Source: Thermococcus sp. JdFR-02 (GTDB lineage Archaea > Methanobacteriota_B > Thermococci > Thermococcales > Thermococcaceae). From it: a stretch of 61,472 bases of DNA. A program made the translations under genes and the position numbers. The notes beneath the pieces are model-generated. The model was not told the origin of the DNA. It did no database searches and saw only the letters and a list, made by a program, of their open reading frames with translations. The first letter of the stretch is position 1; each line of letters opens with the position of its first letter. Shown here one piece after another: positions 2,322 to 47,867 of this stretch. The stretch is from contig MTLP01000039.1 of the NCBI GenBank assembly GCA_002009975.1, positions 1-61,472 of the forward strand, written 5' to 3'.

Positions 2322-2473
2322 TTTACCTTCCCCATCTGAAAATTTTGAGAGGTTATATTATTTAACACTTTACATCACATGTATTAGCATATTTGAAGCA
2401 GAAGCACAATAAAAAAGCTTTTATTCCATTAAAATGTTTTACCTTATTGAAAATCCTTTGAGGAGGCATGATT

Positions 2474-3205
2474 ATGGGAGTGGAAAAGGTTCCAAAATAC
2501 AACATCCCAATTAAAAAGGTCGAATACGTTTATATTGAACTAGATAAGATGAAACCCCACGAACAATTAGTTCAAAAGGAACTTGAAGCCTTTATTGAGA
2601 GTGTAACTGGTTCCGGTGTTTTTTGGAAACCAATGCTTTTAGCCAAGGTCCCGGGAGAAGATATGTATCTAATTGTTGATGGACACCACAGATGGGCTGG
2701 ATTAATGAAATTGGGAGCTAAAAAAGCACCATCTGTAATTTTGGACTATTTCAGCGATGATGTTAAAGTCTACACATGGTATCCTGCTTTTAAAGGCGAT
2801 TTAGATAAGGTCCTAGAACGCTTAAAGAAGGAAGGTGTGGAGGTTATTGAAGACTCCAACGCTGAGGAATTAGCCGAAAAGGGAGAAATAGCCTTCGCAT
2901 TAGTTGGAAAAGACAAAGCATTTAAGATACCAGGAGCATTAAAAGAACAAAAGTTAGTTAGCAAAGTTCTTGATGAAATGAGCGTTAAAGGGGAAATAGA
3001 GCTTATCTATTATGGTCTCAAAGAAGATGCAAAAGCTGACATGGATGTTGGAGAAATTGATTATGTTTTCATAAGAAAGGCACCAAGCAAAGAGGAAGTC
3101 ATGGAACTTGTAAAGAGAGGGGATGTTTACTCACCAAAGACAACAAGACACGTATTGCCATTTATCCCAGATAAGATTGATGTTAAATTAGAGGATCTCT
3201 TCTGA
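2474..3205 (+). CDS. serK: ADP-dependent L-serine kinase SerK (ParB/sulfiredoxin fold)
   Basis: This 243-residue protein matches the Thermococcus kodakarensis SerK type, which phosphorylates free L-serine with ADP as donor to give O-phosphoserine for cysteine synthesis and serine metabolism. The ParB-like core is visible: PHEQLVQKELEAF at about residues 28-40 and the signature VDGHHRW at about 68-74. With the chosen start the glutamate of PHE is residue 30, the position I recall as essential in SerK. The start at 2474 is preferred over the ATG at 2468, because GAGGAGG at 2460-2466 leaves 7 nt to 2474 but only 1 nt to 2468. It is a single-gene unit followed by a T-rich stretch. Family members are often annotated as plasmid-partition ParB, which is misleading. 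Confidence 0.85.
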   Translation: MGVEKVPKYNIPIKKVEYVYIELDKMKPHEQLVQKELEAFIESVTGSGVFWKPMLLAKVPGEDMYLIVDGHHRWAGLMKLGAKKAPSVILDYFSDDVKVYTWYPAFKGDLDKVLERLKKEGVEVIEDSNAEELAEKGEIAFALVGKDKAFKIPGALKEQKLVSKVLDEMSVKGEIELIYYGLKEDAKADMDVGEIDYVFIRKAPSKEEVMELVKRGDVYSPKTTRHVLPFIPDKIDVKLEDLF

Positions 3206-3233: not shown

Positions 3234-3320
3234 TGGCGCCGGGGCGGGGATTTGAACCCCGGTGGGCGAATGCCCATGGGATCTCGAGTCCCACGCCTTC
3301 CCGGGCTAGGCTACCCCGGC
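3234..3320 (-). tRNA. tRNA-Ser (anticodon CGA)
   Basis: On the minus strand a complete 87-nt tRNA folds: acceptor GCCGGGG pairs with CCCCGGC, followed by discriminator G and an encoded CCA. The anticodon stem TGGGA/TCCCA closes the loop CTCGAGA, giving anticodon CGA. A long variable arm (TGGGC-ATTC-GCCCA type) marks the serine class II shape, and the T-loop GGTTCAAATCC is standard. No intron is seen. Its high GC against the AT-rich surroundings is usual for hyperthermophile RNA genes. Confidence 0.96.
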
Positions 3321-3354: not shown

Positions 3355-3476
3355 CTTGCCTAGACGCAAATTTTATTAACATTTGGTATATAAAATATAT
3401 TCGGGCTTTAAAAACGCAAAGCAACAAGTTTAAATGGAATGGAAGACATAGATAATATTGAAAGGAGGTGACAGCA

Positions 3477-4652
3477 ATGGTCGGCATTCTTGTGGAAGAA
3501 GTTATGACCGACAAGTTTGCAAAAATTGACATCAATGCCCCACTTTCTGAAGCCATTGGAATAATAGAAAAAGACAACCCGGATCTAATTTTGGTGTTTG
3601 ATGGAAAGACATACAAAGGTGTTGTTACCCAAGATCTGTTAATTAGATCCCACTTAAAATGGGACCCCACAAAAGCCAAGGTTAGGGATGTTTATAAGCA
3701 TGCCCCTGTTATTGCTCCAAAGGAGGATTTAAGCTTAGCTGCTAGGCTTATGATAGAAACGGACTTAAGATCATTGCCTGTTGGAGATAAAGCCAACATA
3801 AGTGGTGTAATAAGTGATATAGCCCTTCTTAAAAGATTAGTTGAAGGAGAATTTGGTAAAAAGCCAATTAAAGATCTCATGACGAGTGAAGTTATTACAC
3901 TGCTCCCAGACGATACTGTTGCAAAAGCATTGGCAACGATGAGAGATTTTTCAATCTCGAGGATACCTATAGTTAATGAGGAAGGAAAGTTGGAAGGACT
4001 GGTTACTCTACACGATCTAATAATCAGGTTCATAAAACCAAGGTTTAAAGCCCAGTTTGGAGAAGTTGCTGGAGAAAAGATACCACCTTTCTCAACCCAA
4101 TTAAGAGATGTCATGCTTAGAGGAATAATAACAATTTCACCAGAGGCTACTGTCAAAGAAGCCGTAGAAACCATGCTAGAAAAGAACATTGATGGACTAA
4201 TTGTTGTTGATAACGAAAATAAAGTTAAAGGCGTTTTGACAATTAAAGACTTACTGTTGCCCATTTCAAAGATGACTGAGAAAGAGACAAAGTTCTACCT
4301 GCAGCTGGCTGGAGATTCCTACTTACTAAGTGATTTTACAAGGGAGAGGATAATAAGCGATATTAAAAAATTCGTAGATGGCTACTCAGATCTCCTCGGA
4401 AATGAGGGAATAATTTACCTACATGTAAGAAGGTTTAACGAAAAGTTCAGAGGAGTTCACCTATACCAAGCGAGAATGAGGGTTGTAACAGATAAGGGGA
4501 CATTCTTTGCAACTGGGGAAACATGGGGAGCTATCCAAGCAGTCCATGATGCACTAAGGGCTATTGAAAGACAATTGCTCCAAAAATCAGAACTTGAAAG
4601 AGATTTAAGATATGCCAAGAGATTTATTGAAAAATTAGAGCTTTGGCGCTGA
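3477..4652 (+). CDS. Four-CBS-domain protein with HPF-like C-terminal domain
   Basis: A 391-residue protein. Four CBS units follow each other: about 5-60 (EEVMTDKFAKIDINAPLSEA), 68-125, 135-190 (IKDLMTSEVITLLPDDTV) and 212-270 (LRDVMLRGIITISPEATV). Residues about 285-390 look like a ribosome hibernation (HPF/RaiA, S30AE-like) domain: a strand IIYLHVRRF, then a strand with VRVVTDKGTFFATGETW and a long helix AIQAVHDALRAIERQL. CBS pairs usually sense adenine nucleotides. CBS-containing ribosome hibernation factors have been reported in archaea, so an energy-state-gated ribosome silencer is a reasonable inference. The ATG at 3477 is chosen because GGAGGTGA sits 5 nt before it; the GTG at 3468 lies within that site. 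Confidence 0.75.
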   Translation: MVGILVEEVMTDKFAKIDINAPLSEAIGIIEKDNPDLILVFDGKTYKGVVTQDLLIRSHLKWDPTKAKVRDVYKHAPVIAPKEDLSLAARLMIETDLRSLPVGDKANISGVISDIALLKRLVEGEFGKKPIKDLMTSEVITLLPDDTVAKALATMRDFSISRIPIVNEEGKLEGLVTLHDLIIRFIKPRFKAQFGEVAGEKIPPFSTQLRDVMLRGIITISPEATVKEAVETMLEKNIDGLIVVDNENKVKGVLTIKDLLLPISKMTEKETKFYLQLAGDSYLLSDFTRERIISDIKKFVDGYSDLLGNEGIIYLHVRRFNEKFRGVHLYQARMRVVTDKGTFFATGETWGAIQAVHDALRAIERQLLQKSELERDLRYAKRFIEKLELWR

Positions 4653-4754
4653 ATTCCCTTTTCTTTAATACTTTAACAATTTCTTAGGTTTTCAACATTT
4701 GGTTTTAAAAACATCTAAAAACCTCTCCTCATAAGCATAGTTTGGTGAGTAATG

Positions 4755-4982
4755 ATGTGTTTAGCGATTCCGGCTAAAGTTGTTGAAATTAGAGAAAGTG
4801 TTGCAATCGTGGATTTTGGAGGAGTTAGAAGGGAAGCTAGATTAGACTTCGTTAAAGACGTTAAGATTGGCGATTATGTTATAGTTCACACTGGATTTGC
4901 AATAGAAAAGCTTGATGAGAAGACAGCATTAGAAAGTTTGAAAGCATGGGAAGAGGTATTCAAAGTGCTGGAGGGTGAATGA
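4755..4982 (+). CDS. hypC: Hydrogenase assembly chaperone HypC
   Basis: HypC works with HypD in building the Fe(CN)2CO centre of [NiFe] hydrogenases. The 75-residue protein begins MCLAIPAKVVEI, the family signature; Cys2 must follow the initiator Met, so the second ATG (4755) is the right start rather than 4752. GGTGAG lies 5 nt upstream. The stop overlaps the hypD start, so the pair is translationally coupled. hypA, hypB, hypE and hypF are not in the window, but a hydrogenase maturation protease gene is at 60731-61189. Confidence 0.95.
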   Translation: MCLAIPAKVVEIRESVAIVDFGGVRREARLDFVKDVKIGDYVIVHTGFAIEKLDEKTALESLKAWEEVFKVLEGE

Positions 4983-6094
4983 TGGATATCTTAAAAATTT
5001 ACAGTGATAAAGAGTTGGCTCAAAAAATACTTCGTGCGATTTATCATGAAGCCGAGAAAATAGGTAGAGAAGTTAGATTTATGCACGTCTGTGGAACCCA
5101 TGAAGACACAGTAACAAGAAGTGGGATTCGTTCCCTATTGCCAAAGAATGTCAAAGTTTTAGCTGGTCCTGGATGTCCAGTTTGTATTACACCAGCAGAA
5201 GATATTGCTAGAATGATGGAAATAATGAAAAAAGCTAGGGAAGAGGGCGAGGAAATAATTTTAACAACTTTTGGAGATATGTATAAAATCCCCACAGCAG
5301 TTGGAAGCTTTGCCGATTTAAGAAGTGAAGGATTTGATGTTAGAGTGGTTTATTCAGTTTATGATTCCTATAAAATTGCAATAGAAAATCCTGACAAACT
5401 GGTTGTGCACTTCTCTCCGGGCTTTGAAACAACAACAGCCCCTGCAGCAGGAATTTTGAATGAAGTGATTGAAAAGAATATAAAGAACTTCAAAGTTTAT
5501 TCCGTTCACAGACTAACTCCCCCAGCAGTTGAAGCCCTAATAAAGCAAGGAACCACTTTTGATGGGCTAATTGACCCCGGACATGTCTCTACAATAATCG
5601 GAGTTAAAGGATGGGAGTATATAACGAAAGAATATGGGGTTCCTCAAGTAGTTGCTGGATTCGAGCCAATTGACTTCCTCATGGGCTTATTGATGCTCTT
5701 AAGAATTGTCAGAAAAGGAGAGGTCAAAATAGAAAATGAATATACCAGAGTTGTCAAGTATGAAGGCAATGTTGAAGCGCAAAAAACAATAAAGAAGCTC
5801 TTTGACATTGTTGACGCAAAATGGAGAGCTTTGGGAGTTATCCCCAACAGTGGATTGGAGCTTAAAGAGGAGTATAAAGACTGGGAAATAAGAACTTTTT
5901 ATGATGTTAACGTTCCAAAAATGCCTGATTTAGAGAAAGGTTGCTTATGTGGAGCAATATTGAGAGGCTTAGCATTGCCAACAGATTGTCCATTGTTTGG
6001 AAAAACATGTACACCAAGGAATCCAGTGGGACCATGTATGGTCTCCTATGAGGGCACATGTCAAATATTTTACAAGTACGGTGCTCTGTTTTAG
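4982..6094 (+). CDS. hypD: Hydrogenase formation protein HypD
   Basis: HypD is the [4Fe-4S] scaffold on which, with HypC and HypE, CN and CO ligands are added to the hydrogenase iron. In the 370-residue protein the family motifs are intact: VCGTHE with Cys37 and GPGCPVC with Cys65 and Cys68. The C-terminal cysteine cluster includes KGCLCGAILRG, DCPLFGKTCTP and GPCMVSYEGTC. Two ATGs (4979, 4982) are possible; GGTGA ending at 4978 slightly favours 4982. Coupled to hypC; convergent with, and overlapping by 4 bp, the DUF835 gene. Confidence 0.95.
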   Translation: MDILKIYSDKELAQKILRAIYHEAEKIGREVRFMHVCGTHEDTVTRSGIRSLLPKNVKVLAGPGCPVCITPAEDIARMMEIMKKAREEGEEIILTTFGDMYKIPTAVGSFADLRSEGFDVRVVYSVYDSYKIAIENPDKLVVHFSPGFETTTAPAAGILNEVIEKNIKNFKVYSVHRLTPPAVEALIKQGTTFDGLIDPGHVSTIIGVKGWEYITKEYGVPQVVAGFEPIDFLMGLLMLLRIVRKGEVKIENEYTRVVKYEGNVEAQKTIKKLFDIVDAKWRALGVIPNSGLELKEEYKDWEIRTFYDVNVPKMPDLEKGCLCGAILRGLALPTDCPLFGKTCTPRNPVGPCMVSYEGTCQIFYKYGALF

Positions 6095-46918: not shown

Positions 46919-47568
46919 TGCAAAAATTTTCCACAAATAGTATCTGTTGAGAGTTTAAAAATTTTTGCATTAAATAGCGGGGTGGAGAAAATCTCAGCTT
47001 CTTTGCAACTTTTATCACCTTTTTACCCTTCAACAAAAACAGGATTTCATGAAATTGCTCAATAACCCTAATTCTCTTCTATCTTTTACGCAATTAGTTG
47101 AAGATTTTTCGATTCTTGACAGAGAGTCTTATCTTTAGATTTTAATGAAGTTTGGCAATCTATTCTTCAATCAGACTTATATAAAGGATTTTGAACTCTT
47201 TAGTAACTTAGTTTTATTAAAAACTTGATTTTTAAGCTCTTGATGAATTTAGAATTGGGTTTTGTTAAATGCTGGAATTTTTGACTTTCTTTTTAAGCTT
47301 TCCCGATAAGAAAGTTAAGATCGCAAAATTCTGACTTTTTAAGAAAAGAAATTTAGGTTTGGAGCTTTTTCATGAACGTGGAAAAGTGATGTCTGGTTTT
47401 GTTCATTGTGCCAAAACTCTGGGTTTAAGAGTTTTATCGGTAAATAGCCTTTAATTTGGGCTTTAAGTGAGCCTCTATCCTCGCTCTTTTATTGTACCTT
47501 TATGGAAAAGTATTTATATTTTGAGTTCTTTTAGAGTCTTATTGGGGAAATGGGGGAAATTCGCCCCT
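46919..47568 (+). promoter_or_regulatory. Non-coding AT-rich CRISPR leader region
   Basis: About 650 bp with no credible gene. It has T-rich runs (CTTTTT, GTTTTATT) and no ribosome site followed by a real frame. BRE GGAAAAG (47504-47510) and TATA TATTTATAT (from 47511) lie about 57 bp upstream of the first repeat, giving a transcription start near 47540. At 47535-47545 lies AGTCTTATTGG, an inverted copy of part of the CRISPR repeat. Long leaders are usual for Thermococcales arrays. Confidence 0.6.
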
Positions 47569-47867
47569 GTTCCAATAAGACTTTAGAAGAATTGAAAGAG
47601 CCGCAAAAGTCGTTTTCCCCGACTGAGTTTTCCCAGTTCCAATAAGACTTTAGAAGAATTGAAAGTGAATTGTAGCTTTAAACGAACCTTGATTAGCTGT
47701 ATTGTTCCAATAAGACTTTAGAAGAATTGAAAGTGTGCTCTTCATCATCGCAGCGTTCATAATCTTGGCTGTTCCAATAAGACTTTAGAAGAATTGAAAG
47801 GCGTAGAAAGTCGCTCTATCTCTTGTCAAGTCTATCAGTTCCAATAAGACTTATAAAAAATAAGAAA
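47569..47867 (+). CRISPR. Short CRISPR array, 4 full repeats plus 1 degenerate terminal repeat
   Basis: Four identical 30-nt repeats at 47569-47598, 47636-47665, 47704-47733 and 47771-47800. They begin GTTCCAATAAGAC and end GAATTGAAAG, as Pyrococcus/Thermococcus repeats do. Spacers are 37, 38, 37 and 37 nt. The fifth unit (47838-47867) keeps only the first 15 bases (GTTCCAATAAGACTT) and then degenerates to an A-rich stretch, so it is the trailer end. The leader is therefore on the left and transcription is plus. No cas gene is in the window, so Cas proteins must act in trans. The array ends 13 bp from ftsY. Confidence 0.95.

Follow-up and report, generated by a model that had tools for sequence, protein, structure and literature searches.

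An open reading frame (ORF) at positions 3477..4652 (plus strand, stop included) of a 61,472-nucleotide stretch of Thermococcus sp. JdFR-02 DNA is almost certainly hibA, and its 391-residue product would act as a 70S ribosome hibernation factor. This stretch, positions 1 to 61,472 of contig MTLP01000039.1 (assembly GCA_002009975.1), is referred to as the window throughout. A first-pass annotation, made from the letters alone, gave the ORF the same start and stop and proposed a one-chain, energy-dependent ribosome silencer combining four CBS domains with a hibernation-type domain. The silencer part of this proposal is supported by orthology to HibA of Pyrococcus abyssi (PAB0961, UniProt Q9UYR4, PDB 9SR9-9SRF, 9T7H), whose structures on the ribosome and inhibition of translation have been published, as has the phenotype of a T. 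barophilus deletion. HibA was described in an April 2026 article in Nature Communications (PMC13324472); the hibernation-factor reading is largely right but already published, and the window HibA is an ordinary member of its family.

Identity of the gene product

We found that the whole protein aligns with PDB 9SR9 chain H in a phmmer search (E 1.1e-204), an entry that PMC13324472 lists as HibA-ATP. The protein encoded at a P. abyssi-type locus (L024) matches this chain letter for letter over 392 residues, and the window protein is identical to it at 307 of 391 positions, 104 of 123 in the C-terminal domain. Window and P. abyssi HibA have in common their domain order, the loop directed to the peptidyl-transferase centre (PTC), the CBS3/CBS4 motif and the HPF/RaiA fold. 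The former is one residue shorter, with the gap near residue 104, and the archaeal-specific insertions of P. abyssi HibA were judged to be kept from the gap-free alignment alone. T. barophilus HibA (F0LKU5) is treated as an orthologue on the strength of the publication, our sequence comparison being made with the P. abyssi protein. Chain H of 9SR9 carries the label 'Dehydrogenase' in PDB sequence records, and Pab0961 was formerly misannotated as an IMP dehydrogenase (PMC3820547). Identification of PF0321 as hibA could not be confirmed.

Published work on the orthologues supplies the function (PMC13324472). Cryo-electron microscopy of HibA on the ribosome resolved three ribosome-bound conformations, and the classes containing HibA accounted for 75.5% of the hibernating-like 70S particles. 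At 6 uM it inhibits translation in a P. abyssi extract. In a T. barophilus deletion, 70S ribosomes were reduced by about 60% and the lag lasted 4 h instead of 2 h, with a small effect on viability, and HibA was found in 47% of archaeal genomes. As ribosome binding, translation inhibition and ribosome preservation come from P. abyssi or T. barophilus, it is by orthology that the window HibA is expected to act in the same way. Its C-terminal HPF/RaiA-type domain and four-CBS module, joined in one chain, would plug the idle 70S ribosome and so shield it under stress: the CBS module would fill the vacant tRNA sites of the large subunit, loop residues 189-206 would reach the PTC, and an adenylate would bind between CBS3 and CBS4 (AMP being preferred in P. 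abyssi).

CBS module and its conserved motifs

A Pfam search with the hibA product returned four PF00571 stretches (E 7e-44), in agreement with the four CBS domains proposed at first. They lie in residues 1-268 (3477..4280, on the plus strand like all hibA features below), a module that binds the large subunit in P. abyssi HibA (PMC13324472). Conservation was examined in an alignment of 20 Thermococcales proteins, drawn from 31 loci with a match and with the window protein representing its own two loci. Invariant positions number 79 of 121 in the C-terminal tail and 136 of 268 in the CBS part.

The ribose-type motif of CBS domains, G-x-x-T-x-x-D, signifies adenylate binding. In the hibA product it is complete only in CBS3 and CBS4 and incomplete in CBS1 and CBS2. 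All seven residues of the CBS3 copy, G-L-V-T-L-H-D (T177 and D180; 3996..4016), are invariant in 20 of 20 aligned proteins, and so are T255 and D258 of the CBS4 copy, G-V-L-T-I-K-D (4230..4250). This placement agrees with the single adenylate, AMP or ATP, reported at the CBS3/CBS4 interface (PMC13324472). The same report gives a role at the PTC to P. abyssi loop 190-207; the corresponding residues 189-206 of the window protein (4041..4094) are invariant at 12 of 18 positions in 20/20 proteins.

Fold of the C-terminal domain

The full-length model had a mean predicted local distance difference test score (pLDDT) of 82.4 and a predicted template modelling score (pTM) of 0.59; given these values, the placement of the two halves relative to each other was not used. 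All 50 matches listed in a fold search with this model were CBS-protein or AMPK-type entries, and the C-terminal domain was therefore folded and searched separately. At E<=0.001, the Foldseek list then contained 26 PDB chains, every one from an HPF, RaiA, protein Y/YfiA, hibernating-ribosome or chloroplast-ribosome entry. A hibernation factor is named in the titles of 21 of the 26 ('ribosomal subunit interface protein' being counted as such); the titles of 5mmj, 5x8r, 6h4n, 5ngm and 5zep give only a ribosome, and we take the matched chain to be the factor. With VIA-align 2, the domain superimposed on Listeria HPF with Z 12.4 (root-mean-square deviation 1.7, 98 residues aligned). The first 33 rows were entries of the HPF/RaiA kind (Z 12.4 to 8.2), followed by a Helicobacter adhesin (Z 7.5). 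The fold-search matches listed (library up to 2026-04-08) include neither 9SR9 nor 9L96. Comparison of a predicted structure with HPF, the check suggested at the outset, thus points to an HPF/RaiA-type domain, with one correction: it covers residues 269-391 (4281..4649), a length of 123 residues and not the 105 first given.

PF02482 had no match at E<=1 in the whole hibA product and no match in one of two relatives also searched (L037); a search of the genome at E<=10 was negative too, the same search being positive in 12 of 14 control genomes. The isolated C-terminal domain scored 14.4 bits against PF02482, under the cut-off of 23.7, and a profile search of PDB with it reached RaiA chains only at E 0.69-1.2. 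Detection of an HPF domain by Pfam and PDB profile searches was accordingly set aside as too weak to decide. Comparison of the tail with PDB sequences (E<=10) yielded five matches, two of them significant. Its 123 residues align gap-free with residues 270-392 of 9SR9 chain H (E 3.7e-67), and it matches the 406-residue CBS protein of 9L96 with E 4.7e-10, or E 3.3e-11 with profile A2.

That protein, 9l96 chain a, comes presumably from a haloarchaeon; it has CBS repeats and a C-terminal domain matching that of the window protein, and is distant in sequence. A similar architecture is reported for HVO_2384 of Haloferax volcanii (PMC12607858). Bacterial HPF/RaiA factors (PF02482), by contrast, are described as having no CBS module (PMC13324472), and the window domain falls below the Pfam cut-off for their family. 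CBS modules also block ribosomes in Dri of Pyrobaculum calidifontis (PDB 9e6q, 9e7f), but Dri fuses two such modules and has no HPF-type domain, whereas the window HibA has one module of four CBS stretches.

Competing functions

Three points weigh against the hibernation-factor reading. One is the sub-threshold PF02482 score described above; the others concern nucleotides and replication proteins. The notion of energy dependence would make the adenylate at CBS3/CBS4 a switch deciding whether the ribosome is engaged. It accords with a T-x-x-D motif kept in CBS3 and CBS4 and in no other CBS, and with binding of AMP, ADP and ATP to the P. abyssi CBS module (dissociation constants of 12, 65 and 113 uM; PMC13324472). 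However, AMP leaves the ribosome-bound classes unchanged and ATP adds one weakly populated state, so that the conformational landscape on the ribosome is largely the same with either, and the authors describe no clear influence of nucleotides on binding to the ribosome (PMC13324472). The energy-dependent element is the less secure part of the first-pass annotation, and we regard a nucleotide switch as doubtful.

Replication proteins bring in another candidate role, that of a regulator of DNA replication or recombination acting through the CBS module on the GINS-MCM-GAN complex. A GINS23 pull-down recovered the P. abyssi orthologue with a moderate score, TK1186 had been seen with GINS23 in another study, and pull-downs also linked the P. 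abyssi protein to RadB and the GAN nuclease (PMC3820547); it may thus have an additional role. That article states that the protein has no further domain, but its C-terminal domain has an HPF fold, and the share of hibernating-like 70S particles containing the orthologue likewise speaks against replication control. We consider it very unlikely that replication control is the main function of this protein. A CBS transcription regulator like HhpR has hardly any probability at all. The NCBIfam HhpR model (NF053603) does match the hibA product through its CBS repeats, but with 63.3 bits where the cut-off is 520, while a separate four-CBS protein in the same genome scores 513.9 bits, just under that cut-off; the extra HPF domain and the orthology to HibA also disfavour this assignment. 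A ribosome hibernation factor of the HibA family remains the reading that we adopt for the gene product.

Promoter elements and a predicted Phr-type operator

Translation of hibA is read from ATG 3477, 5 nucleotides 3' of the strong Shine-Dalgarno sequence AGGAGGTGA (3463..3471). GTG 3468, the mechanical ORF start, falls within this Shine-Dalgarno sequence. In all 34 listed hibA loci, at least GGAGGTG stands immediately 5' of the aligned ATG or GTG start. The window copy is one of the three longest in 54 window ORFs checked, and as near-perfect Shine-Dalgarno sequences occur elsewhere too, it was not used for any argument.

Further upstream, a putative proximal promoter with a B-recognition element (BRE) and a TATA-like box, AACAAG-TTTAAAT, occupies 3423..3435. 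We compared the upstream regions of 44 distinct relatives, one locus (L065) having been dropped because its start lies outside the locus, with the boxes set by our own search expression. TTTA[AT]AT occurs in all 44, between -41 and -49, and TTTATTAAC, in a distal element similar to the Phr operator, in 33, between -87 and -107. In the window, a possible distal BRE/TATA element, GCAAATTTTATTAA (3366..3379), is overlapped by a predicted Phr-type operator, TTTATTAACATTTGGTATATAAAA (3372..3395). This operator is an exact match to the pattern TTTA-N8-TGGTA-N3-AAAA (13 letters, with TGGTA and not TGGTAA), whose spacing was fixed after the window sequence had been viewed. The published Phr boxes are TTTA, TGGTAA and AAAA (PMC6316755).

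Two exact matches were found in the 2.36-Mb genome: the one before hibA, and one in an hsp20 promoter that precedes an HSP20-family gene and then a CDC48-type AAA ATPase gene. Phr is reported to regulate HSP20 and VAT1 in P. furiosus (PMC10746257) and to control hibA in Thermococcales (PMC13324472). About 0.4 exact matches are expected per genome, as estimated from a simulation that yielded one match over 5.5 Mb.

Two results count against a Phr site before hibA. When one mismatch or fewer was allowed, the pattern gave 22 matches and a reversed control gave 20, indicating that the exact matches alone are meaningful. In addition, a matrix was built from the near-identical operators found in 30 of 30 hsp20 loci. 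These operators score 36.9-41.8 with it, as against 7.6 for the window hibA site, 17.3 for the best hibA site and values near or below 0 for many. Still, the distal element has the highest matrix score in 38 of 44 hibA upstream regions, and another position has it in 6; shuffle p-values for these hibA scores cannot be counted as independent from one relative to the next. Operator and TATA box are arranged differently in the two promoters: in hsp20 the operator is 3' of the TATA box, and in hibA it overlaps a TATA-like stretch. Cumulatively, these comparisons give moderate support to a weak Phr site before hibA and hint that the gene may be switched on together with heat-shock genes. Such a site for the Phr heat-shock repressor would raise hibA expression under stress.

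A published mutation in the hibA TATA box of T. kodakarensis

Twelve mutations are listed for ALE22, a T. kodakarensis strain evolved in the laboratory (PMC12628685). One is a T to C change at 1042430 'upstream of tk1186 (CBS domain-containing protein)', and TK1186 is HibA (PMC13324472). In the T. kodakarensis genome used here (G029), we found the published reference base at 9 of the 9 positions checked out of the twelve, 1042430 included. The hibA start in that genome is at 1042471, which puts the mutated base (position 631 of locus L078) 41 nucleotides 5' of the ATG, at the final T of GCAAAGG-TTTATAT, in the proximal TATA box of hibA. The main text of PMC12628685 mentions tk1186 once, in a table. 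EF-2 R715G and ten further changes are present in ALE22 as well, so that no effect is assignable to the hibA mutation. Neither the operator position nor the mapping of the ALE22 change to the hibA TATA box was found stated in the open-licence literature searched.

We infer from these elements a scheme in which hibA of Thermococcales would have two promoters, a distal one overlapped by a weak Phr operator and released by heat shock, and a proximal one giving basal expression. The level of HibA would then trade growth against survival, and the ALE22 TATA change would be an adaptive down-mutation. This scheme is tentative, and we think it improbable as a whole. The mutation and the Phr-type operator are best taken as leads on hibA regulation.

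Distribution and genomic context

Of 81 genomes of the family, 79 gave a match to the HibA tail, including all 72 of good quality; in a phylum sample it was detected in 90 of 115 genomes, and in 75 of the 84 whose quality was good. A distant version, 27-28% identical and aligned over most of the chain, is present in three of four listed genomes of family f2, in one of which three CBS stretches were found with E<=0.001. At the search sensitivity used, no HibA-tail match was obtained in ten listed genomes of family f3 or in two of family f4, and five further genomes of the phylum sample were without a match. The JdFR-02 genome has one HibA tail, one SBDS gene and one HhpR-like four-CBS protein. 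In a draft genome (G077), hibA occurs on each of two contigs (L043, L044), possibly through strain mixture or contamination.

A tRNA gene beside hibA had been pointed out; it is tRNA-Ser(CGA), at 3234-3320 on the minus strand and divergent from hibA. After removal of nine duplicates, L065 and three loci with a short upstream region from 54 loci, a tRNA is beside hibA in 21 of the 41 distinct relatives whose upstream region reaches 400 nucleotides or more. Its presence carries little signal, and a functional link between hibA and tRNA-Ser was dropped. tRNA-Ser is beside hibA in none of the eight genus g2 loci in this set (L010, L016, L017, L020-L024), including the P. abyssi-type locus L024. 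Just beyond tRNA-Ser lies a gene for the ADP-dependent L-serine kinase SerK (2468-3205, plus strand; NF053625, 392 bits against 380). Overlapping HypC and HypD genes (4752-6094, plus strand) follow hibA directly, and L025 alone among the other loci compared has both by hibA. A short CRISPR array at 47565-47867 comprises four full repeats and one degenerate repeat with a spacing of 67-68; no cas families were found in ten ORFs scanned from 38.9 to 49.7 kb.

Implications

The hibA gene described here adds a species to the family and not a mechanism, and the upstream data are the useful part of this analysis. The predicted operator gives a concrete site behind the published remark on Phr control of hibA. 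ALE22, an existing strain with a mutated hibA promoter, offers a possible way of learning whether growth benefits from a lower level of the factor.
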